DNA from: Lentisphaeria bacterium | Lineage (GTDB): Bacteria > Verrucomicrobiota > Lentisphaeria > Victivallales > UBA1829 | NCBI GenBank assembly: GCA_017629515.1 | Contig: JAGBXB010000053.1 | Coordinates: forward strand, 1 to 64,000 | DNA length: 64,000 nucleotides | Direction: 5' to 3' | Shown here: piece by piece, positions 13,445-60,804 of the stretch | Numbering within the stretch: the first letter of the stretch is position 1 | Layout of the letters: each line of letters starts with the position of its first letter | Notes under the pieces: generated by a model | What the model saw: the letters and a program-made list of their open reading frames with translations, nothing else | Told to the model about the DNA's origin: nothing | The model's database searches: none | Made by a program: the position numbers and the translations under genes

Positions 13445-14259
13445 ATGATTTTTCAAGACAAAGTGGAACTGCCTCTGTGGGATGAACTCCCGCCGGAGGG
13501 AGCTGAAAATGCAGATCGGGAAAATTTCTCCCACCCTGCGATAACCATGTTTGCGCCGCCCCAATGGAAAAGATATGATAAAGCGATCGTCATTTTTCCC
13601 GGAGGCGGGCATAATTACCACACACATCCCGAAGGCAATTTTTATGCAGAATATTTTGCCTCCATGGGGTATTGGACTTTTGCTGTCACATACCGGCTTG
13701 GCGGGGAAAAATTCATTCATCCGGCACTGTTGAATGATGTGGCAAGAAGCATAAGACTTGTAAGAAATGCCGCAAAAGAACTGGGGTTCTCCCCGGATAA
13801 AGTAGGGGTGATGGATTCTTCCGCCGGCGGACACCTTGCGGCACACATTTCCTGTTGTTATGATTCGGATGAGATCGTTTACGGAAAAGATGAAAAAGAA
13901 AAAGTTTCTTCCAGACCGGATTTTACCATTCCCTGTTATCCGGTGAACTCCGGAGTGAGGAAAAAAAGACATGAGAAGAGTTTCTGCCGTATTCCGGGAA
14001 AGGAAAAACCAACGGTTGAAGAGAGAAAAAAAGTCTCTCCGGAATTGTTCGTAAACAAAACCACACCGAAAGCCTTTCTCTGGCACAGATACCATGATTT
14101 GCGTGTACCATTGGAAAATTCCCTCCTGTATGCGGAAAAACTCCGGGAGAACGGTATTCCCTTTGAACGGCATATTTACGAAAAAGGCGGCACGGAAAAG
14201 GTCTGGACAGTGACGCCCCATGGAGTAATGCCTGTCTTTTATGGCTTTCCATGTTTTGA
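13445..14259 (+). pseudogene. Frameshifted alpha/beta-hydrolase (esterase), degenerate copy of the next gene
   Basis: Clear paralogue of the gene at 14311, same length and order (QWKRYDKAIVIFPGGG, YRLGGEKFIHPALLNDVARS, AAKELGFSPDKVGVM). One base is missing after 14190, compared with the paralogue's GGA-CAC-GGC. Reading through gives GGTEKVWTVTPHG and a random tail ending at 14299. Restoring one base gives GGHGKGLDSDAPW and then WLSMF with a stop at 14257-14259, matching the paralogue's GGHGMGINNGHPW and WLSMI. The frameshift removes the catalytic His, and the nucleophile elbow is also altered (DSSAG instead of GSSAG). A sequencing error could explain the missing base but not the elbow change. 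Confidence 0.85.
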
Positions 14260-14310
14260 GAATCCAATGCAAACAGAATATAACCTACACCAAAAATAAG
14301 GAAAAGAAAC

Positions 14311-15120
14311 ATGATTTTTACAGACAGAACCGCCCTCCCCCTGTGGGATGGAACCGCTCCTTTTGCCCACGGAAGTGAAGGAGGAAAAGATATTCCCACC
14401 ATCACCCTTTATACCCCTCCCCAGTGGAAAAGATATGATAAGGCTGTTGTGATCTTTCCGGGGGGCGGCTATACTCATCTTGCGCCGCATGAAGGAGTTG
14501 GCTATGCGGAATTTCTCGCTTCCAACGGGATCTGGGCGTTTGTGGTCAATTACCGTCTGGGCAGCAATAAATATGCCCACCCTGCCCAGTTGAATGATGC
14601 GGCAAGAGGGGTGAGGATGGCGCGGCTCGCAGCAAAAGAACTGGGTTTCTCCCCGGATAAAGTAGGGGTGATGGGTTCTTCCGCCGGCGGACACCTTGCA
14701 GCACATATTTCCACTTGTTTTGATTCTGAAGAGATCGTATATGGCAGTGATGAACAGGAAAAAATTTCTTCCCGTCCTGACTTTTCCATACTCTGCTATC
14801 CTGTCATTTCCGGAGTAAGCGAAAAGAGACATAAAGGCAGTTTTATAAATCTTCTCTGCAAAGAAGACCCCACAGAAGAGGAAAGAAAAAAGGTCTCTCC
14901 TGAATTATTCGTAAATAAAAACACCCCCAAAGCTTTTATCTGGCATACATTCATGGATAAGGGCGTCCCCATGGAAAACAGCCTTTTCTATGCGGAAAAA
15001 CTCCGGGAAAACGATATTCCCGTTGAACTGCATATTTACGAAAAAGGCGGACACGGCATGGGGATCAATAACGGTCATCCCTGGGCACAAGCCTGTATTT
15101 TCTGGCTTTCCATGATTTAA
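14311..15120 (+). CDS. Alpha/beta-hydrolase, acetyl-esterase-like (BD-FAE family)
   Basis: A 269-aa cytoplasmic serine esterase-like protein. The oxyanion region is VVIFPGGGYTHLAPHEG, the nucleophile elbow VGVMGSSAGGH (near residue 130), the acid is in TFMDKGVPMENS, and the catalytic His in EKGGHGMG. This pattern belongs to the family often annotated as xylan/acetyl-sugar esterase or lipase; the substrate is likely an acetylated sugar, by family precedent only. No signal peptide is seen. It is the intact partner of the frameshifted copy just upstream (11 bp gap), and is followed 15 bp later by an FNT-type channel. Confidence 0.85.
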   Translation: MIFTDRTALPLWDGTAPFAHGSEGGKDIPTITLYTPPQWKRYDKAVVIFPGGGYTHLAPHEGVGYAEFLASNGIWAFVVNYRLGSNKYAHPAQLNDAARGVRMARLAAKELGFSPDKVGVMGSSAGGHLAAHISTCFDSEEIVYGSDEQEKISSRPDFSILCYPVISGVSEKRHKGSFINLLCKEDPTEEERKKVSPELFVNKNTPKAFIWHTFMDKGVPMENSLFYAEKLRENDIPVELHIYEKGGHGMGINNGHPWAQACIFWLSMI

Positions 15121-27678: not shown

Positions 27679-29544
27679 ATGACAAAACTGACAACAGTAT
27701 TACTTTTTATTTCTGTAATTCTTTTTTATTCCACAGGTTGTTCCACTGGGATCCATGTAATAAATAATTCCCCGCAGGAACGGAAAAATTATGCGGTCAT
27801 TGATTTTTCCTCCGGCGATCTCAATGGCAGCACCATCAATCTTCTGAATAACTATCAGTTGATGCAGTGCTATGAAAATGATCCGGAAAAATTGATTTTC
27901 AATCTGGAAAAACTTTACGCGATTTATAAAACAAGTGACATTGTTGCAGCTTTGGCGGATACAGCCTTGCAGATCGGATACAGAACAAGCAGGGAAGAGG
28001 ATATTTCAAGCAGATATTTCCTTGCGGCGGCATTATATGCAAGTATGTATCTCAAAGAACTCGATGATAAGGAAAATCTATATAACGAACAGCGAATCAG
28101 TATGATCCGAATCTGCAACATGGCAACCACGGAACTTTTTCTTTATCTGAAAAAACGCTCTCTGGAACGCAAATGCGGCTTTGAACTTGTTTTACCCGGT
28201 ACGGGGGGCAGAAAGATCTATTTTTCCCCTCCGGTTTTCGATCTTCCTCTGCCGGAAAAGGATATAGCAGATTTTACACCCTGCGCCCAGTACAGGACAG
28301 TAAATCTCACCCATGATACAAAAACATTCGGTATCGGAGTGCCGCTGGTGGCAACTTTACAGAAAAATTGCCGGGACAGTGTGGGGCTGCCGTTACCGGG
28401 CTTCCCTGTTGCTGTGACCTTACTGCCGGATTTCAAAGTAAAAAGCAAAGAAGATATCCTTTGTTCTTTACGGTATATTTATACAAGGATCAATGATACG
28501 GTAATGTTCGGCAACAGACTGTTTCCCCTTGCCTCCGATTTCTCCACCCCGTTGGCAAAGGCTGCCGCCATGCCGAAAAAACTGCATTTTCTGCGCCGGA
28601 CTTTTCAGGTGCAGGAGGCCAAATCCATTACAGGATTATATCTTTTTGAACCTTACGATGAAAAACGCATCCCGGTAGTATTTGTCCATGGACTCATGTC
28701 GGATATAAGCACATGGGGACAGATGCTCAATACTTTGCTGCATGACAGTAAACTGCGGAAAAAATATCAGTTTCTGGGGTTTGCCTATTCCAGCGGAAAT
28801 CCTGTTTTCACTTCAGCGGCGATATTAAGGAAAAACCTTGCGGCGTTGCGTCAGACCCTTGTGGAGAATAAACGCTCCACAGAACAATTTGACAAAATGG
28901 TACTTGTCGGTCATTCCATGGGGGGACTTCTTTCCCGTTTACAGATCACAAGTTGTTCCGTTGAGGAAATATCCGGTTTCTTCCAGATCCGGAACCAGGA
29001 ATTGTTTCTCCGGAATCTTTCCAGTCAGGAAAGGGAAAAAATCCGGGAGAAGATCGTTTTTTCCCCTGCGCCTTTTATCAAACGGGTGATTTTTATAGCC
29101 GTACCTCATAAAGGCTCGGAAATTGCAAGAAGCTGGGTGGGGGCAATAGGAGCCTCTCTGATCAATCTTCCTGTGGATCTGGTCAAAGTCAATATAGATA
29201 TTGTGAAAAAGGTGGCGAAACTGGATAAAAACGGTAATAAATACCTTGATGCGCTCCGCCATAATACGGGAATAGATAATCTCCGCCCGGATTCCCCGAT
29301 CCTTCTTCTGATGAACAAATTGAAAATGGCAGATATTCCCTGTCATTCCATCATAGGAAATAATAAAAAATCCTTCACCCCCGGCGGTACTGATGGCGTT
29401 GTCCCGTATTGGAGCAGTCATCTGGACAATGCAAAAAGTGAACTTATCGTCCATTCCGGACACAGTGCCCACCGTTCCCCTCTTGCCATACAGGAAGTAA
29501 GGCAGATACTGCTTACCCACGCAGAAAAAAGTTTGAAGAAATGA
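27679..29544 (+). CDS. Lipoprotein with alpha/beta-hydrolase (lipase/PGAP1-like) domain
   Basis: A 621-aa protein. A signal peptide ends in a lipobox (FYSTGC, Cys near residue 21), so it is probably anchored in the outer or inner membrane facing the periplasm. Residues 25-320 are unrecognised. The hydrolase domain then shows VVFVHGLMSDISTW, the nucleophile elbow VLVGHSMGGLL, FIAVPHKGSE, an Asp in GGTDGVVPYWSS, and a His in VHSGHSAHRSP. This order fits esterases of the lipase/PGAP1 type acting on lipids. The N-terminal region is unusually long for the family and may bind a substrate or partner. Confidence 0.82.
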   Translation: MTKLTTVLLFISVILFYSTGCSTGIHVINNSPQERKNYAVIDFSSGDLNGSTINLLNNYQLMQCYENDPEKLIFNLEKLYAIYKTSDIVAALADTALQIGYRTSREEDISSRYFLAAALYASMYLKELDDKENLYNEQRISMIRICNMATTELFLYLKKRSLERKCGFELVLPGTGGRKIYFSPPVFDLPLPEKDIADFTPCAQYRTVNLTHDTKTFGIGVPLVATLQKNCRDSVGLPLPGFPVAVTLLPDFKVKSKEDILCSLRYIYTRINDTVMFGNRLFPLASDFSTPLAKAAAMPKKLHFLRRTFQVQEAKSITGLYLFEPYDEKRIPVVFVHGLMSDISTWGQMLNTLLHDSKLRKKYQFLGFAYSSGNPVFTSAAILRKNLAALRQTLVENKRSTEQFDKMVLVGHSMGGLLSRLQITSCSVEEISGFFQIRNQELFLRNLSSQEREKIREKIVFSPAPFIKRVIFIAVPHKGSEIARSWVGAIGASLINLPVDLVKVNIDIVKKVAKLDKNGNKYLDALRHNTGIDNLRPDSPILLLMNKLKMADIPCHSIIGNNKKSFTPGGTDGVVPYWSSHLDNAKSELIVHSGHSAHRSPLAIQEVRQILLTHAEKSLKK

Positions 29545-52915: not shown

Positions 52916-55006
52916 TTATTTTTCAGTCTCCTGTAAAAGGATTTTTGCTTTGGAATGAGGATTGATAAGCAATGCTTTTGCACAACTCTTTTTCATTTCC
53001 CCGGTTTTCCCTGCGATCTTCCGGGCAACGGCAAGATTTAAAAGATACTGTTCATTTTTTTCATCCATGGCACACGCCCGCATCAAAAAGATCTCTGCAT
53101 CCACAGCCCCGCCGGAACGGATAAGCAATACGCCAAGATTATTCAATGCCTTTGCATATAACGGATCCAACTGCAATACAGAATAGTATCTTCTTTCCGC
53201 TTCCGCAAAATTTCCGGTATATTGAGCAAGCAGTCCGTAATTATACAGAAGCAGTACCGTATTGCTGCGGGAACGGGGAAGAAGAGAGGCTCTGTCAAAG
53301 ACTTCTTTTGCCTTGTCCCACTTTTTTGTTTCCAGAAGAAGCGTTCCGTAATTCATGAGAAGTGCGAAATCTCCGGGTTCCTGCTGTAAAGCCTTTTCCA
53401 GAATTGCTGCTCCCCCGGCATAATCTTTCCGGGCGATCTTCGCTTTTGCCAGAAGATCATATTTCTGGGCATCAAATTTATGATAATACAAGGGGGTTTG
53501 TTGAAGCACTTCTTCACAATGCCGCACCTCCCCTTTTTTCAAATAGGCTTCCGCAAGCAGAAGGCGTGAATATTCTTTCAGATCGTTGCCCCGTGCTTTC
53601 ATATCAAGAACCATTCCCCCGATCCCCATGGCAAGAAACAAAAGAAAGGCAAATGCCGCTTTCAGGTATTTCCCGAAAGTTCTGCGGGGGGCGGCAAAAA
53701 GCAGACTGGCTATTGCCGCAAGGACCGGCAATAATGCCATACGGTAACGCCCAGCACTTACAGTAAGGATCTGTGCAAGGAAAATACTTCCTCCCAGAAG
53801 GATAAAATACCGCATATCATGGAGAAATCTTCTCTGGAACGCTCTTGTCAAAAAGACCATTGCGGCACTTACAGAAAGGAAAAGGAAGAAAAAGTGAAAG
53901 AAATATTTATGGAAAAAACATTTTTTCAGTGCGGTGATATCCGACCATGTGGAAAGTTCCGAAGCAGAAAAGATATAAAGGATCTTCCGGATCGTCCGCA
54001 ATATGGTTTTCACAGGATGGGATATACTTTCCTGCAATGCCTTTTTTACAAAGAGCGCATCCGTATTACACTCTCTGCTTTCCGCTTCTTTTGCATTGTC
54101 TGCATGGATCCTGTACCAATCCTTTCCCGGGGGGATATCACATGCGCCAGTTGCATTTTTATTATTTCCCAGATAGAAATTAAAGCCGCTGTTTCCCTGG
54201 ATAAATACCGGACGGGAGGCAACTTTACTTACATGATATGACCAGAAAAATGTAAGAATAAGCACAGGAAAAATAAAGGCGAATGCAGTAAAAATCTTTC
54301 TGTTTCTGCTTACAAGTCCTCTGCCCAGGATGCCTCTTATGAGAAGATAGAAAAATACAAAAAGGGCAAAAAGCATACTGGATGGATGGGTCAATACAGC
54401 CAAAGCACAGAATGATCCGGCAATGGCAAAATACCCGAACCGTCCGGGAAGTTTCGTTTTATCCGCAAGAAGCATAAAATATACAGCAAAAGCAAGACAT
54501 ACACAAAGAAGATTTTCCGCAAAAAAATCACTCTGATATACGATCAACGGAGGATAAAGAGCCAGGATCCATGTGGAAATAAAGGGAATGAACCGCATCG
54601 TCCAGGGACGGTCGGTCGTCATGTTTTCCGGAGCAAAATAGATGATACGCAGAGAATAATAAACAGGATATACTGTCAGACACATCATGATCAAAGATTG
54701 CAGAAAGCGCATCTCTAAAATTTGATGGGAAGTAAAAGATGCCAGAAGCGCAAGAAAATACGCATACAACGGCGCATGGATCGGCAGGGATTCCGGTAAA
54801 AATTCCCCGGCAAGGATACGGCAGGCGTGGGAATAATATTCCGATACGTCCGGGCCGACGATCATTTCCCCTACCGGCAATAAAGAAAGTTCATATAAGT
54901 ACCACCCGCGCAAACAGCATCCGCACAAAAGCGCAAAAAGAGGAATGAGGATGGGCGGCATCCCTTCAAATGAACTTGCCACACTTCTTAAAAAAGAATT
55001 TCTCAT
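52916..55006 (-). CDS. Membrane glycosyltransferase (GT39/PMT-like) with C-terminal TPR repeats
   Basis: A 696-aa inner-membrane protein. About ten hydrophobic helices form a GT-C-type core (IHAPLYAYFLALLASFTSHQ, VYQSDFFAENLLCVCLAFAV), like ArnT/PMT-type transferases that use a polyprenyl-phosphate sugar. A C-terminal region from about residue 490 contains TPR-like repeats (GGAAILEKALQQEPGDFALL, YYSVLQLDPLYAKALNNLGV). Conserved acidic pairs near VGPDVSEYYSH may bind the donor. ATG 55006 has AGGGA seven bases away; a TTG at 55033 is less likely. It is the last gene of the envelope operon. Confidence 0.75.
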   Translation of the reverse strand: MRNSFLRSVASSFEGMPPILIPLFALLCGCCLRGWYLYELSLLPVGEMIVGPDVSEYYSHACRILAGEFLPESLPIHAPLYAYFLALLASFTSHQILEMRFLQSLIMMCLTVYPVYYSLRIIYFAPENMTTDRPWTMRFIPFISTWILALYPPLIVYQSDFFAENLLCVCLAFAVYFMLLADKTKLPGRFGYFAIAGSFCALAVLTHPSSMLFALFVFFYLLIRGILGRGLVSRNRKIFTAFAFIFPVLILTFFWSYHVSKVASRPVFIQGNSGFNFYLGNNKNATGACDIPPGKDWYRIHADNAKEAESRECNTDALFVKKALQESISHPVKTILRTIRKILYIFSASELSTWSDITALKKCFFHKYFFHFFFLFLSVSAAMVFLTRAFQRRFLHDMRYFILLGGSIFLAQILTVSAGRYRMALLPVLAAIASLLFAAPRRTFGKYLKAAFAFLLFLAMGIGGMVLDMKARGNDLKEYSRLLLAEAYLKKGEVRHCEEVLQQTPLYYHKFDAQKYDLLAKAKIARKDYAGGAAILEKALQQEPGDFALLMNYGTLLLETKKWDKAKEVFDRASLLPRSRSNTVLLLYNYGLLAQYTGNFAEAERRYYSVLQLDPLYAKALNNLGVLLIRSGGAVDAEIFLMRACAMDEKNEQYLLNLAVARKIAGKTGEMKKSCAKALLINPHSKAKILLQETEK

Positions 55007-55041
55007 TATTGAATCCCTGTATCTTTTTTCCAATTTTTATC

Positions 55042-55896
55042 TTATCCGAACTCGCCCCCGGCAATACCGTAGCAGCCGGTATCCGGCAGTGGGAAATGTT
55101 CACCCCAGTCCATCAAATTCATGTTCACGCCCTCTGTAAAACCTTTTTCCAGCAGTATTTTCCGGAATTTTTCCTGATTATCATAGATCATCGTCTGCAA
55201 TTTTTCCGCACCGGATTTCAGAGTACAGGAATAGAAAAAGAGTTTTTGCGCTGCCGAAGGATCGATGGAAGAACACATGATATTTCTTGCCGCAGGCCCG
55301 ATCCTGCCCAAAGTAAAAGCATTCATTTTTCCATCAGGATCTCTGTGGCAGAATGCCAGTTCCGGATGGGTACGGAAAAGATATTCCATTATCTTTCTCC
55401 GGGGGAAACCGAAAATCTTTTCATCCAGGATATACATTTCTTCCAAATCTTTTTCTGTTACAGGAAAAATCCCTTCCGGCATTTCATCCATAACAGGAAA
55501 ATCCTTACAGGAAGCAAAATATTTTCTCTGCCCCAGCAAAGGAACAAACCCCAATTTCGTATAAACATGCCCTCCGGAGGGTGTGGCATACAGCCGGTAT
55601 GTACGGCAGGCGGCTTTTTCCATAAGCATTTTCACCATGTTTTTTGCTATCCCCCTGCCCCGGTAATCTTCATGGGTCACGACCATATTGATATGCCCAA
55701 GTTGCCGGTCTCCAAAGATGAAACAACCGGCACAACCGATGATTTTTTCCCCGGCAAGCGCGTAAACGGCAAGCGAATTATCCGAAGAAGTAACCATCCG
55801 GCAATCTTCCATTGTCTGATTCCATCCGGCATGTCCGGCAAGAAAAAGCATTCCCGCCGGTTCTTTTGTAAAAACATATTCTATTTTCTTATCCAT
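55042..55896 (-). CDS. GNAT-family N-acetyltransferase
   Basis: A 284-aa protein with two GNAT-like halves. The first has the acetyl-CoA loop in MVVTHEDYRGRGIAKNMVKMLME (Arg-Gly-x-Gly-Ile/Ala type, near residues 80-100); the second resembles the C-terminal GNAT of two-domain members. The acceptor is unknown. ATG 55896 has GAGG five bases upstream and follows the MFS stop closely. Its place in the operon suggests acetylation of a lipid, sugar or peptide handled by the neighbours. Confidence 0.8.
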   Translation of the reverse strand: MDKKIEYVFTKEPAGMLFLAGHAGWNQTMEDCRMVTSSDNSLAVYALAGEKIIGCAGCFIFGDRQLGHINMVVTHEDYRGRGIAKNMVKMLMEKAACRTYRLYATPSGGHVYTKLGFVPLLGQRKYFASCKDFPVMDEMPEGIFPVTEKDLEEMYILDEKIFGFPRRKIMEYLFRTHPELAFCHRDPDGKMNAFTLGRIGPAARNIMCSSIDPSAAQKLFFYSCTLKSGAEKLQTMIYDNQEKFRKILLEKGFTEGVNMNLMDWGEHFPLPDTGCYGIAGGEFG

Positions 55897-55903
55897 CAAA
55901 ACC

Positions 55904-57178
55904 TCACTTATTTTTATGTGTTTCCGGAACAAACAGTGCAGTAATAACGCCGACAACGGCAAAAGATGTTATCACAATAAAAATATCCCGGTAGGCTTGC
56001 GGGGGATAATGGAATACACTTCCCACACTTCCGGCTGCTTTCATTGCAAATTCACTTGTTTCATATTTTCCCAACACCAATCCGGCAGAAGTCCCGCCAA
56101 TGGCAATACCTACAAAAGCAAAAAAGTTCAGCATTGCCACCGATAACCCCACATATTCCGGAGGATTCAATTCCTTTGAATATGTTCCGTACAGGGGGAA
56201 ACACCCGGCGGGAAGTGCCAGAAGAACAAATACGAAGGGGGTAAAAATCCCCGGCAGCTGCAAACCGAATACAAGAATACCGGCGATCCCGCCGGATAAA
56301 CACAATAAAGATGCGGTAATAAGAATACGGTGTCTTTTCTGTTTGAAAAAGGCGAGGATCATCCCCGCCCCCAGATTCAATGCAGCAATGATCCCGGAAA
56401 GAGTGGACATCCATAAAGAAGCGGAATAGTGGCTGAAATGTGCATAATCTTCCAGTGCTTTCAGCCCGATGGTGGATAAGATCATATAGTGAGAACCGAA
56501 AATGATCATACTGGAAACACTCAAACAGTTGGAAAAATGATTTTTCAGGATCAGGAACAGAGGGGAAAAGAGGGATTCCCCGCCCCGGATCTTTTTTAAT
56601 GTACCGGGGGAAAGAAAATAAATAACGCACATGGCTGTTGCCACCACCGCACCGACCGCAAGGAATGCCTTGTTCCAACCGGTAAGTTTCACAAGGGAAA
56701 CAAAAGGCAATCCGCCGCAAACCGGGCCGAGATACCCGATAAAAAGCGTGATACCCAATACGGATGAAAACTTTCCCGGAAAAATATCCGCAATAAGTTT
56801 AGCCAAAGCAATAAATACAGAACCAGCGCCGATCCCGGTTATTCCCCTTACCGCAATAAGAAGAAGAGGATCTTTCAAAAGGGGGAAAAGAATACTTCCG
56901 GCAGTAAAAAGAGAGCCTCCTATAAGAAGAATACGCACTCCGCCGAATTTGTGGCTCAACAACCCCAATACCAACTGACTCAACGCATAGCAATACATAA
57001 AGGCAGACCCCATGGCGGCAAGTTCATTGCCGGAGACGCCAAGCGTCCTCTGCATATCGGAAAATACAGCCCCCGGCACAAGCACCTTGTTCATGCTGGT
57101 AAAGAACATAAGAAGAGTGGCAAAACAGAGGATAAAGAATTTTTTCCTGCGGATGATATTTACATTAGTTATTTCCAT
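55904..57178 (-). CDS. Major facilitator superfamily transporter
   Basis: A 424-aa inner-membrane carrier with twelve predicted helices. MFS features include the loop-2 region LLSHKFGGVRILLIGG (with the conserved Gly-x-x-x-Asp/Arg pattern) and helix 4-5 LLIAVRGITGIGAGSVFIA. A central loop of about 20 residues separates the halves. The substrate is unknown; the operon context would fit transport of a lipid-derived or sugar product. It starts 24 bases after the MlaA-hydrolase gene. Confidence 0.85.
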   Translation of the reverse strand: MEITNVNIIRRKKFFILCFATLLMFFTSMNKVLVPGAVFSDMQRTLGVSGNELAAMGSAFMYCYALSQLVLGLLSHKFGGVRILLIGGSLFTAGSILFPLLKDPLLLIAVRGITGIGAGSVFIALAKLIADIFPGKFSSVLGITLFIGYLGPVCGGLPFVSLVKLTGWNKAFLAVGAVVATAMCVIYFLSPGTLKKIRGGESLFSPLFLILKNHFSNCLSVSSMIIFGSHYMILSTIGLKALEDYAHFSHYSASLWMSTLSGIIAALNLGAGMILAFFKQKRHRILITASLLCLSGGIAGILVFGLQLPGIFTPFVFVLLALPAGCFPLYGTYSKELNPPEYVGLSVAMLNFFAFVGIAIGGTSAGLVLGKYETSEFAMKAAGSVGSVFHYPPQAYRDIFIVITSFAVVGVITALFVPETHKNK

Positions 57179-57202
57179 AAACTTTTTCTCTTGCTTTCTG
57201 CA

Positions 57203-59398
57203 TTATTTTTCCATTTTTTTTGTATCACACTTTTCCACGCCGAAAGTACTTTCCAGAATGGCTTTTTTATATACACCCAGAAACATATTTCCCAGATGCC
57301 CGCCGCAATCAAACCATGTGATTTTGCTTTTCAAAGTTTCATCAAGGAAAAGAATATCTTTCTTTTGCAGAAGAGGATCATCCAGATTATGCAACACTCT
57401 CACACGGGGATTTTTTTCAAGAGTGGAAGAAATGCTCTGCAAAGCTGCTCTCATGCCCAGTTTTTCCATAGTGAGATCTTTTTCCTTTTTCTGCAAAGAG
57501 GGCAGCAAAATCTTTTGCGCATATTCCATCCAGTTGTAAGAATCTATCTCCCTGTAAAGCGTACTTCTCTGCCACCAGCTGTACGGAGTTCGCAAGGGCC
57601 TTTCCCCGAATGGAAATTCACGCTGGGCGGCAAACAAAAGTTCCCGCAATCCCATACGCATATAGATCCCGGAGATCCACCCTGCCTGACGGGGGGATAA
57701 CGGCAGATAAAGAGGATTATCCCATACTTTTTCTTTATGATTTTCTTTCCTGTTTTCTTTTTCTTCTGCTTTTTTCTTCACTTCTTTCTTCCCCGCATCT
57801 TTTATCCCTTCTTTTCGGCTTTGCGGACGCAAAACGCCAAGTACACCTTTTTTCCCGGAAGAAGCAAGATAGATCTTCATAGCAGCATCCCCCGCCATAT
57901 CAAAAAATTCCTTTTTGGAAAGGTCTTTGGGAATATCGCAGAAGGAATCCATTTTCTGCAAAGCATAAATAAGATCCGCCGGAGGATTGATGGCAATGAA
58001 ACGGTCTATTTTCATTGGATTATTCTCTTTTTCCTCCAATGCGGCAAGGTGCAGAGTATGCAATCCCCCCAGAGAATACCCCCCGACAATAAGACGGGAA
58101 GGCAATAATCCATGTTCTTTTTTCACTTGATGGATGATTTTTTTCAACGCCTTGCGTACATTTGCCGTATCTTTTTTCACATCACCGGGCAATCCATCAC
58201 CCGCAGGCAGGAAAAATGCCGGATTCAAACTGTTGGCAAGTACAACAACTGAACAGCCTTTCTCAAAGTATATCTCTGCCAGAGCCCGCAACATACCTGC
58301 CTTGTAGTGCCCCCCTGCACCGGGGATAAGCAATACAAGAGGGGCATCTTTCTTTTCTTCCTGTAAAAAGATCTGATATTCCATCTGCCGGGCATCTTCC
58401 TTTTTATCGGTAAAAGAGATGGATGAAGTTTCCGCAAGGGGGATAAAATCCGTATTCCACAAGGAGGTTTTGATCCACCACCCGGAATTATTCTTTCTAA
58501 CCTGAAAAAACGCTCCTTTAAGGGTATCGATCAAAGGATTCTGCGCACCATATTGAGAAGCACATTTTATCATATTGCCCTGAAAAGGAATTTGCGGGAT
58601 CTCTGCTTTACCGAAGTTGGATTGCTCCGTATGCAATAATTTTTTATGGAAATTTTCCACCTGGGCATACCGCATAAGGGACATGACTACTTTGGTATTT
58701 TCATATACATCGCAAGAATTTTCCGTAAGGGAACTATATGAGTCATAAGAATTTACGGCACTGTTTATCCCGGCAAGGTATCCAAAGTAGGGGATATAAC
58801 TTTTCATATCCGTTGCACGGTCAAAGACCACGCCCACCGTATCCCGCACATTGGAGGAGGCAAAGAAAGGCAATACAAAATAACACCCCGGCCCGATATT
58901 CCAGTACCCGAAGGTCTGTCCGAAATCCTCGTTGCGTCTTTCCAGTCCGAACCAGGCCTCCGCAGGATCGAAAAATCCGGCTATACCGATGGTAGAGTTG
59001 GTCAGGAATCGGAGAAATTCCACGCCGCCGCCCTTAAATTCCCCCTGTAAAAAACAACTGAACATCCGGCAGGGAAAAGCCAGATTGTCCGACGCATAAT
59101 CGATTCTTTTTATGACTTCCATAGGAAGAATGGAACCATAAACATACCCTATGGGACGCACGATATAGTGCATACAAAAGTCGGTAATGGCAAACATCGT
59201 CCGGTTGAAAGGTTCAATGGGGTCACTCCCGGCAAGTTCTTCCGTTATCCGGCTTGCCGTCCAGTCGATATTTTTCTGTTCCCCTTCTGCGCCGGAAAAA
59301 TCCGGCATACTCCGGCATCCGGCAGAAAGGAAAAGAAGAAAAGAAAGGAGCAGGATACTGCATGAATAAAAAATATTCATTTCCGTAGATTTTTTCAT
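57203..59398 (-). CDS. MlaA-type outer-membrane lipoprotein fused to an alpha/beta hydrolase
   Basis: A 731-aa protein. Signal peptide with lipobox LSAGC (Cys near residue 28), then a VacJ/MlaA domain to about residue 250 (SDPIEPFNRTMFAITDF, FLTNSTIGIAGFFDPAE, NEDFGQTFGYWNIGPGCYFV). A hydrolase domain follows: VLLIPGAGGHYKAG, the nucleophile elbow GGYSLGGLH (near residue 450), HNLDDP as acid and GGHLGNMF as base, interrupted by a charged Lys/Glu-rich linker. MlaA normally removes phospholipids from the outer leaflet; the fused hydrolase suggests coupled cleavage. ATG 59398 has GGGAG eight bases upstream; a GTG at 59407 is too close to it. Confidence 0.85.
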   Translation of the reverse strand: MKKSTEMNIFYSCSILLLSFLLFLSAGCRSMPDFSGAEGEQKNIDWTASRITEELAGSDPIEPFNRTMFAITDFCMHYIVRPIGYVYGSILPMEVIKRIDYASDNLAFPCRMFSCFLQGEFKGGGVEFLRFLTNSTIGIAGFFDPAEAWFGLERRNEDFGQTFGYWNIGPGCYFVLPFFASSNVRDTVGVVFDRATDMKSYIPYFGYLAGINSAVNSYDSYSSLTENSCDVYENTKVVMSLMRYAQVENFHKKLLHTEQSNFGKAEIPQIPFQGNMIKCASQYGAQNPLIDTLKGAFFQVRKNNSGWWIKTSLWNTDFIPLAETSSISFTDKKEDARQMEYQIFLQEEKKDAPLVLLIPGAGGHYKAGMLRALAEIYFEKGCSVVVLANSLNPAFFLPAGDGLPGDVKKDTANVRKALKKIIHQVKKEHGLLPSRLIVGGYSLGGLHTLHLAALEEKENNPMKIDRFIAINPPADLIYALQKMDSFCDIPKDLSKKEFFDMAGDAAMKIYLASSGKKGVLGVLRPQSRKEGIKDAGKKEVKKKAEEKENRKENHKEKVWDNPLYLPLSPRQAGWISGIYMRMGLRELLFAAQREFPFGERPLRTPYSWWQRSTLYREIDSYNWMEYAQKILLPSLQKKEKDLTMEKLGMRAALQSISSTLEKNPRVRVLHNLDDPLLQKKDILFLDETLKSKITWFDCGGHLGNMFLGVYKKAILESTFGVEKCDTKKMEK

Positions 59399-59431
59399 CC
59401 GGCACACTCCCTTTTCTAAAAACAGAAACCC

Positions 59432-60637
59432 TTATTTTTTCACAGTTTTCACCGGTTTTTCCGGTTTTTCATAGATGGAGGGGGTGGATAATTTGCGTCT
59501 GCGCAATTCTTCATCTTCGGATTCTTTTGTCAGGTTCAGCAAAGCAAACATGGCAGGCTGTTTACCGGTAATGATGGCAACTTCCACACCGGAACCGTAT
59601 TTAAGGTGGAATCCCTCCGGATCAAGTTCCACTTCCACGATATACCGGATCTGATTGGGATCCGTATCATCCGGCACATCGCTTATCCAGCGTACTTTCC
59701 CCAGGAATTCCCCGTACTGCAAGCGGTTATATACATCGCTTGTCACTCTCACAAGCTGCCCCGGCTTTACCTTTCTGACTACATTGACATCCACCTTGCA
59801 CCTTGCACGGCTTTTATTTCCGGCGGCAATGATGGCGGCAACTTTCCCCTGGGAAACATACCAGGAATTTTTAGAGGGCAGCAGAACCAGTCTCCCGTCC
59901 GCAGGCGCAACGATCCGGCAATCGCGGATACACTTTTGCAAAAAGGCAAGTTCCGCCTTTTTTCCGGCAAGTTTTGCCTCGACCAGAGCAATCTCACGCT
60001 TTGCCTTTGCTATATACAATTTACCCAGCCCGCTGTTGACGATCTGCAAATTTTTCTTTGCGCGCGCCAATTCCCCCTCACCGGCAATGGCTTCCATCTC
60101 CACTTTCTCAAATTCGATAAGAGAGATGGCACTTACAAGCTGCAATTTTTTACTTCTGTCCAGACGCGCCAGAAGCCGTTTACTGCGTTCACTGGCTTCC
60201 TTATGGTTCATGGCGGCATACCAGAGTTCTTTCGGCAAGGGTTCTTTTTCCAGAATGGCAAGTTCCGTTTTTTTCAGTTCCAGTTCAGCGGCAAGTTCCT
60301 TTATCTCCGCATCGGCGGCAATGGCGGAGGATTCATAACTTCTTGTATCCAGTTCGGCAATAACATCTCCGGTTTTCACATCATCCCCGGTACGGAAATT
60401 GAATTTCTTCACCTGCGCGTCCAGATGCCCCACGATCTCATAGGTATGTTCCGGAACAACTGCGCCTCTGGCAAAGATGGTATCCTCGATCTCAATAAGC
60501 AGAAGGGCAAGTCCGGCAATAACGACCGCCCCTCCCCCGATGGCTGTAAGGATCAGCATAAGTCTCATTTTGGAACGGATGCCGCTGGCACCGGCCTTGT
60601 GTTTCTGTTCGGAAAAACTGTTTCCTGCCCTGCTCAT
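59432..60637 (-). CDS. HlyD/MFP-family periplasmic adaptor
   Basis: A 401-aa membrane-fusion protein. It has one N-terminal inner-membrane helix (LMLILTAIGGGAVVIAGLALL, residues 25-45), a first lipoyl-like strand (EIVGHLDAQVKKFNFRTGDDV), a long coiled-coil hairpin from about 100 to 230 (ELAAELELKKTELAILEKE), a second lipoyl half (RIVAPADGRLVLLPSKNSW), and a beta-barrel end. Such adaptors link an inner-membrane pump to the outer membrane. ATG 60637 has GGAG seven bases upstream; the longer frame is implausible. It is the first gene of the operon; no pump or TolC is adjacent. Confidence 0.8.
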   Translation of the reverse strand: MSRAGNSFSEQKHKAGASGIRSKMRLMLILTAIGGGAVVIAGLALLLIEIEDTIFARGAVVPEHTYEIVGHLDAQVKKFNFRTGDDVKTGDVIAELDTRSYESSAIAADAEIKELAAELELKKTELAILEKEPLPKELWYAAMNHKEASERSKRLLARLDRSKKLQLVSAISLIEFEKVEMEAIAGEGELARAKKNLQIVNSGLGKLYIAKAKREIALVEAKLAGKKAELAFLQKCIRDCRIVAPADGRLVLLPSKNSWYVSQGKVAAIIAAGNKSRARCKVDVNVVRKVKPGQLVRVTSDVYNRLQYGEFLGKVRWISDVPDDTDPNQIRYIVEVELDPEGFHLKYGSGVEVAIITGKQPAMFALLNLTKESEDEELRRRKLSTPSIYEKPEKPVKTVKK

Positions 60638-60804
60638 AAAAAGACTCCATGGTTGATTTGCGCTGAAAAAAATGAAGAACACCTTCATTTCAGGAAATAA
60701 AAATTTCAGCTTTCCCATTACTTTAATACATTGAAGCATAAAAACAAGTTTATTTCCTGTAAAAAAATTGTTTTTTTTCTTTTTCCATTGTTTTTTGAAA
60801 AAAA

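Follow-up and report, generated by a model that had tools for sequence, protein, structure and literature searches.

The DNA analysed here, called the window below, is a stretch of 64,000 nucleotides from a Lentisphaeria bacterium (contig JAGBXB010000053.1), and the feature under study is a single gene that codes for an MlaA-type lipoprotein joined in one chain to a serine hydrolase. The first-pass annotation placed this gene rightly at 57203-59398 but omitted its strand, which is the minus strand. This strand is open for 731 amino acids from the ATG at 59398, and on the plus strand the same interval has no open frame and many stops. An SD-like GGGAG lies about 10 nt upstream of the ATG, and because of its position ATG 59398 is preferred to GTG 59407 as the start. 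The protein begins with the lipoprotein-type signal that serves as a criterion of the MlaA family, and Cys28 is kept in 30 of 31 aligned relatives; the lipobox was judged by eye, and its position -3 is occupied by Ser in this protein but by Leu in a number of relatives. The features of the gene are collected in Table 1. The Lys/Glu-rich insert has a pLDDT below 50 at residues 517-542 and 545-560 and falls in a gap of the alignment with most relatives. The gene stands in a tightly spaced, operon-like run on the minus strand (52916-60739), which codes for HlyD-like, fusion, MFS, GNAT and TPR/glycosyltransferase-like proteins. The idea that the neighbours, HlyD-like upstream and MFS and GNAT downstream, form a functional module was rejected, as the gene order is not conserved beyond the genus.

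Table 1. The mlaA-hydrolase fusion gene in the window and the parts of its protein product.
Feature	Coordinates	Strand	Basis
mlaA-hydrolase fusion gene, ATG start, 731 aa	57203..59398	-	open frame; GGGAG; kept in family and class
Signal sequence, lipobox-like LSAGC; Cys28 is the predicted lipidated residue	59315..59398	-	sequence; Cys28 conservation
MlaA domain, residues 58-238	58685..59227	-	PF04333 E 3e-48; fold match 5nuo
Junction, residues 250-320	58439..58651	-	motif Y..QNP..DTL common to split hydrolases and MlaY N-termini
MlaY-type alpha/beta hydrolase domain, residues about 321-720	57239..58438	-	hhalign, family HMM, fold
Lys/Glu-rich insert, residues 517-560	57719..57850	-	predicted disordered; missing in most relatives
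Catalytic Ser442, nucleophile elbow GYSLG; aligns with MlaY Ser187	58073..58075	-	invariance; MlaY alignment
Catalytic Asp674 (DD); aligns with MlaY Asp388	57377..57379	-	invariance; spacing to His 27 as in MlaY
Catalytic His701 (GGH); aligns with MlaY His415	57296..57298	-	invariance

MlaA is a remover of lipids from the outer membrane. The N-terminal half had been assigned to this family from its VacJ/MlaA motifs, and the assignment holds well: both blocks, DPIEPFNR and NEDFGQTFGYW, are found, and the match to PF04333 reaches 164.5 bits against a curated cut-off of 25, covering profile positions 2-187 of 195. With the fusion protein as the phmmer query, the solved MlaA structures are matched at E 5e-21. 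A model of the fusion predicted by AlphaFold2 from 29 sequences (mean pLDDT 84.9, pTM 0.85) superposes on MlaA 5nuo with Z 18.2 and rmsd 2.6 over 193 residues, and Foldseek gives a TMt of 0.75 to MlaA 5nuq. In the full-length alignment of 29 members, residues D59, E62, N65 and R66 of the motif DP.E.FNR are invariant. In the MlaA tree a branch with SH-aLRT 92 separates all hydrolase-linked proteins of the Verrucomicrobiota type from the standalone and proteobacterial MlaA, including Pseudomonas MlaZ. A grouping of the MlaA half of the fusion with MlaZ, tested by this tree, was not recovered, so the two MlaA halves need not be orthologous as a pair.

The C-terminal half was read by the first-pass annotation as a serine hydrolase with a GYSLG elbow, a DD acid and a GGH base. 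In the single fusion protein the hydrolase is only weakly matched by Pfam (Abhydrolase_1, E 0.006), and because of these weak scores it was tested through its relatives and through structure, both of which bear out the reading. Ser442, Asp674 and His701 are invariant in all 29 fused proteins of the full-length alignment and in all 22 diverse hydrolase domains from the phylum, across which the mean column identity is 38%; in the aligned set of 31, Ser442 never varies, nor do Asp674 and His701 in the 30 sequences long enough to include them. The C-terminal region of the model is predicted to have the alpha/beta hydrolase fold, with the Pyrococcus esterase Pf2001 as the best match (Z 20.4, rmsd 3.3, 245 residues), and in the Foldseek and VIA-align comparisons of the model no phospholipase family stands out among the esterases.

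Other predicted hydrolases also occur in the window. The plus-strand gene at 27679-29544 codes for 621 aa, with an N-terminus resembling that of a lipoprotein (STGCS), a long middle stretch without assignment and a C-terminal serine esterase of the DUF676/PGAP1 type; the protein is a second predicted envelope hydrolase and is unrelated to the MlaY-type domain. At 13445-14299 and 14311-15120 (plus strand) lie tandem paralogous esterases of the BD-FAE type, of which the former diverges from the latter at GGH, its C-terminus being changed from there in the manner of a frameshift.

A two-gene counterpart of the fusion is already known, contrary to the earlier statement that no characterised example is known. 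In Pseudomonas aeruginosa, the MlaA homologue MlaZ is proposed, in PMC11131202 and PMC12569750, to hand phospholipids to the lipase MlaY. According to PMC11977310, the alpha/beta hydrolase domain of MlaY holds Ser187, His415 and Asp388, an E. coli pldA mutant is rescued when MlaYZ are co-expressed, and in MlaY mutants the breakdown of cardiolipin fails upon sphingosine treatment. The same paper describes MlaY as a PldA homologue; by sequence, MlaY matches alpha/beta hydrolase models weakly and a barrel model not at all. By tblastn we located the MlaY gene in P. aeruginosa records, where it codes for 453 aa with exactly Ser187, Asp388 and His415 and adjoins a VacJ/MlaA gene. A pair of hydrolase and MlaA genes is also present in Skermanella and Fusobacterium, and among plasmid records only six contain relatives, those inspected being two-gene forms.

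The hydrolase of the fusion is homologous to MlaY. Their identity is only about 21%, but BLASTP gives E 9e-21, and the hydrolase family profile aligns with P. aeruginosa MlaY by hhalign at E 1.5e-45 over 329 columns, whereas the controls reach E 4.5e-6 at best, over about 90 columns. With the family HMM, MlaY scores 186.9 bits and the three unrelated hydrolases taken from the window stay below 10 bits, and the spacing of 27 between Asp and His is the same in both enzymes. The likeness to OmpLA that had been drawn earlier does not hold for the enzyme itself: PF02253 has no match in the fusion protein, nor in any of the 36 family genomes (0/36), and the candidate of an OmpLA-like enzyme was rejected. 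On these comparisons the hydrolase is demonstrably a homologue of MlaY and not an OmpLA-like enzyme. The fusion is a new, single-chain form of MlaZ-MlaY; no MlaA-hydrolase fusion was found in the literature searched. Both systems consist of an MlaA-family protein and a homologous alpha/beta hydrolase with the same triad, whereas MlaY-MlaZ (PA3238-PA3239) is encoded by two adjacent genes with the hydrolase before MlaA and the fusion is one chain with MlaA first.

The fusion occurs well outside the source genome. In its family, 35 of the 36 genomes have an MlaA match, in 34 of these 35 within frames of about 590-1275 aa; the exception, G008, has its MlaA near a contig end. One genome (G001) has an in-frame stop inside the hydrolase. 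Those 34 of the 36 family genomes hold the fusion, and it recurs through most of the class and in a cultured isolate, Victivallis vadensis. Both outcomes that would have spoken against the first-pass annotation, a C-terminal region of another fold and a fusion confined to this genome, were not borne out. When named genomes were scanned with the hydrolase alone, using the closer set A2 (alignment A1 being too diverse for a pattern scan), 34 loci came up; nearly all bear the label Lentisphaeria, Lentisphaerota or Victivallales, and a few are labelled otherwise, including Kiritimatiellota and one Akkermansia label. All 34 are linked to MlaA, 30 as fusions and 4 as neighbouring genes, and they include V. 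vadensis DSM 14823 (L127) and a complete Lentisphaerota chromosome. Chance or an assembly chimera is excluded by this recurrence in independent genomes, in a cultured isolate and in a complete chromosome. Two genomes, G142 (L078, L079) and G251 (L090, L091), carry two fused MlaA-hydrolase copies each.

Within the same order there are also split forms (L065-L072), in which MlaA has only 250-340 aa and the hydrolase has a gene of its own, the next one downstream in the same direction; the two genes overlap or lie apart by no more than a few tens of bases. Since each split hydrolase begins with a signal peptide, the enzyme is predicted to be exported from the cytoplasm. Their MlaA partners have signal peptides seemingly without a lipobox Cys, and Pseudomonas MlaZ (L161) likewise appears to be without one; lipidation may sit on either partner. 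In the hydrolase tree rooted with MlaY, the eight split forms cluster inside the fused ones (SH-aLRT 91), which a single fusion with one later fission, or else two independent fusions, could explain.

Across the phylum, the hydrolase was found in 83 of 288 genomes, with two further weak matches (E about 5e-7) left out as other hydrolases, and MlaA is present in all 83, so that the hydrolase is linked with MlaA in every case seen. This strict linkage bears on the reading in which the substrate of the hydrolase is some other lipid or ester of the envelope, for instance a lipid A acyl chain, a lipoprotein or a dietary or bile-derived ester, with MlaA anchoring the hydrolase in the outer membrane or feeding it that substrate. 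Alpha/beta hydrolases are chemically versatile, the fold matches described above are to general esterases with none singled out, and many family members come from gut and rumen samples, all of which would suit such a role. It is, however, difficult to reconcile with the linkage to MlaA and with the homology to MlaY, whose loss blocks the induced breakdown of cardiolipin, and an MlaA that acted only as an anchor would not need the four invariant residues of its DP.E.FNR motif. We thus regard this reading as unlikely.

The hydrolase and MlaC nearly exclude each other. MlaC is found in 1 of the 83 genomes with the hydrolase as against 29 of the 31 with standalone MlaA (Fisher p 1.3e-23, with genomes counted as independent despite their kinship), and wherever MlaC and a standalone MlaA occur together (30 genomes), their genes are no more than about 1 kb apart. 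As the hydrolase-linked MlaA proteins all fall on one side of the tree, the exclusion may reflect very few evolutionary switches. In the family of the fusion, drafts included, MlaC as searched with one Pfam profile (PF05494) was detected in 0 of 36 genomes, whereas P. aeruginosa has, besides MlaY-MlaZ, the classical MlaA pathway (PMC12569750). The sole genome having both the hydrolase and MlaC, G195, carries mlaE-mlaC-mlaA at C1:1960572-1963828 (L064) and resembles P. aeruginosa in having both systems. This genome belongs to another class, and its second, distant locus, a fused MlaA-hydrolase at C1:2986607-2988313 (L063), was probably acquired. In the passages of PMC10665443 considered, MlaA and MlaC are already described as sparse outside Proteobacteria, and the fusion is not mentioned.

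The position of the hydrolase in the chain is compatible with a replacement of MlaC. The C-terminal helices and the tail helix of E. coli MlaA are what MlaC docks to, at the periplasmic base of the protein (PMC10719372). Canonical MlaA ends in this MlaC-recruiting tail, while the fusion has the hydrolase in that place, with its junction apparently occupying the position of the tail. It could be argued from the same position, together with the absence of MlaC, that the hydrolase half is only a structural, non-catalytic stand-in for MlaC docking. A scaffold of that kind would leave the invariance of Ser, Asp and His in such deeply diverged sequences unaccounted for, and we consider it extremely improbable.

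Based on these results, we propose that the fusion is a single-chain MlaZ-MlaY that extracts phospholipids from the outer leaflet and hydrolyses them in place instead of handing them over to MlaC, a proposal that we hold to be likely. In this mechanism, the MlaA domain in the outer membrane would pull strayed outer-leaflet phospholipids through its channel. The chain would run on from the docking place of MlaC into the tethered MlaY-type hydrolase, which would sit at the periplasmic mouth of the channel and substitute for MlaC. The Ser442-Asp674-His701 triad of this putative phospholipase would then cleave acyl chains off the lipid received, and the mislocalised lipids would be destroyed on the spot rather than returned whole by MlaC. 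The suggestion of the first-pass annotation that extraction is coupled to cleavage in one chain is thus supported, with a plausible mechanism and a presumed phospholipase activity. Relative to the canonical Mla system of E. coli (MlaA-MlaC-MlaFEDB), the MlaA domain, the predicted lipoprotein anchoring and, at another site in the genome, the genes for MlaE, MlaF and MlaD are shared, whereas MlaC was not found in the family of the fusion. With OmpLA/PldA only the proposed outcome, the destruction of outer-leaflet phospholipids, is shared: OmpLA/PldA is a beta-barrel, whereas the enzyme of the fusion is an alpha/beta hydrolase predicted to lie on the periplasmic side.

An outer membrane bearing lipid A is expected in this lineage from the presence of LpxC in 34 of the 36 family genomes. 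The LptD profile PF04453 has matches in only 16 of the 36, all weak, and LptD seems to be highly diverged in the lineage of the fusion.

Against the proposed mechanism stands the fact that the source genome, where an mlaE-mlaF-mlaD operon (L146) is present away from the fusion, and most relatives keep these genes, which leaves room for transport. The fusion could then feed a retrograde pathway, its hydrolase either cutting the extracted lipid down to a lysophospholipid or working as an acyltransferase or lipid carrier, with MlaEFD moving the product to the inner membrane without MlaC. It is in accord with this that MlaE occurs in 34 of the 36 family genomes and that, according to PMC10665443, a bridge-like MlaD without MlaC occurs in other phyla. 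By contrast, MlaE is present in 267 of the 288 phylum genomes irrespective of the MlaA type and thus has no special tie to the fusion. Moreover, MlaE was not detected in nine fusion genomes (G064, G088, G125, G168, G188, G223, G277, G007 and G254), seven of which are of one genus and some of which are 93-97% complete, which argues against a dependence of the fusion on the MlaE transporter. We therefore give the retrograde pathway little credence.

Several consequences of the fusion are to be noted. The hand-over from MlaZ to MlaY in P. aeruginosa is a proposal from genetics, and a natural fusion together with split operons across a deep lineage gives strong independent evidence that both proteins act on one substrate in one place. 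The fusion offers a single protein for structural and enzymatic work, with V. vadensis DSM 14823 as a cultured source. With MlaC nearly excluded, the question of whether degradation alone keeps the asymmetry becomes testable. It may be that the Lentisphaeria and their relatives have swapped the MlaC hand-over for an MlaY-type lipase placed at the mouth of MlaA, with extraction and destruction by a single polypeptide being their only MlaA-based asymmetry pathway and independent of MlaE in some species, a generalisation to which we give an even chance. If this is true, the partner that stands beside MlaA, a carrier or a lipase, would define two modes of Mla.
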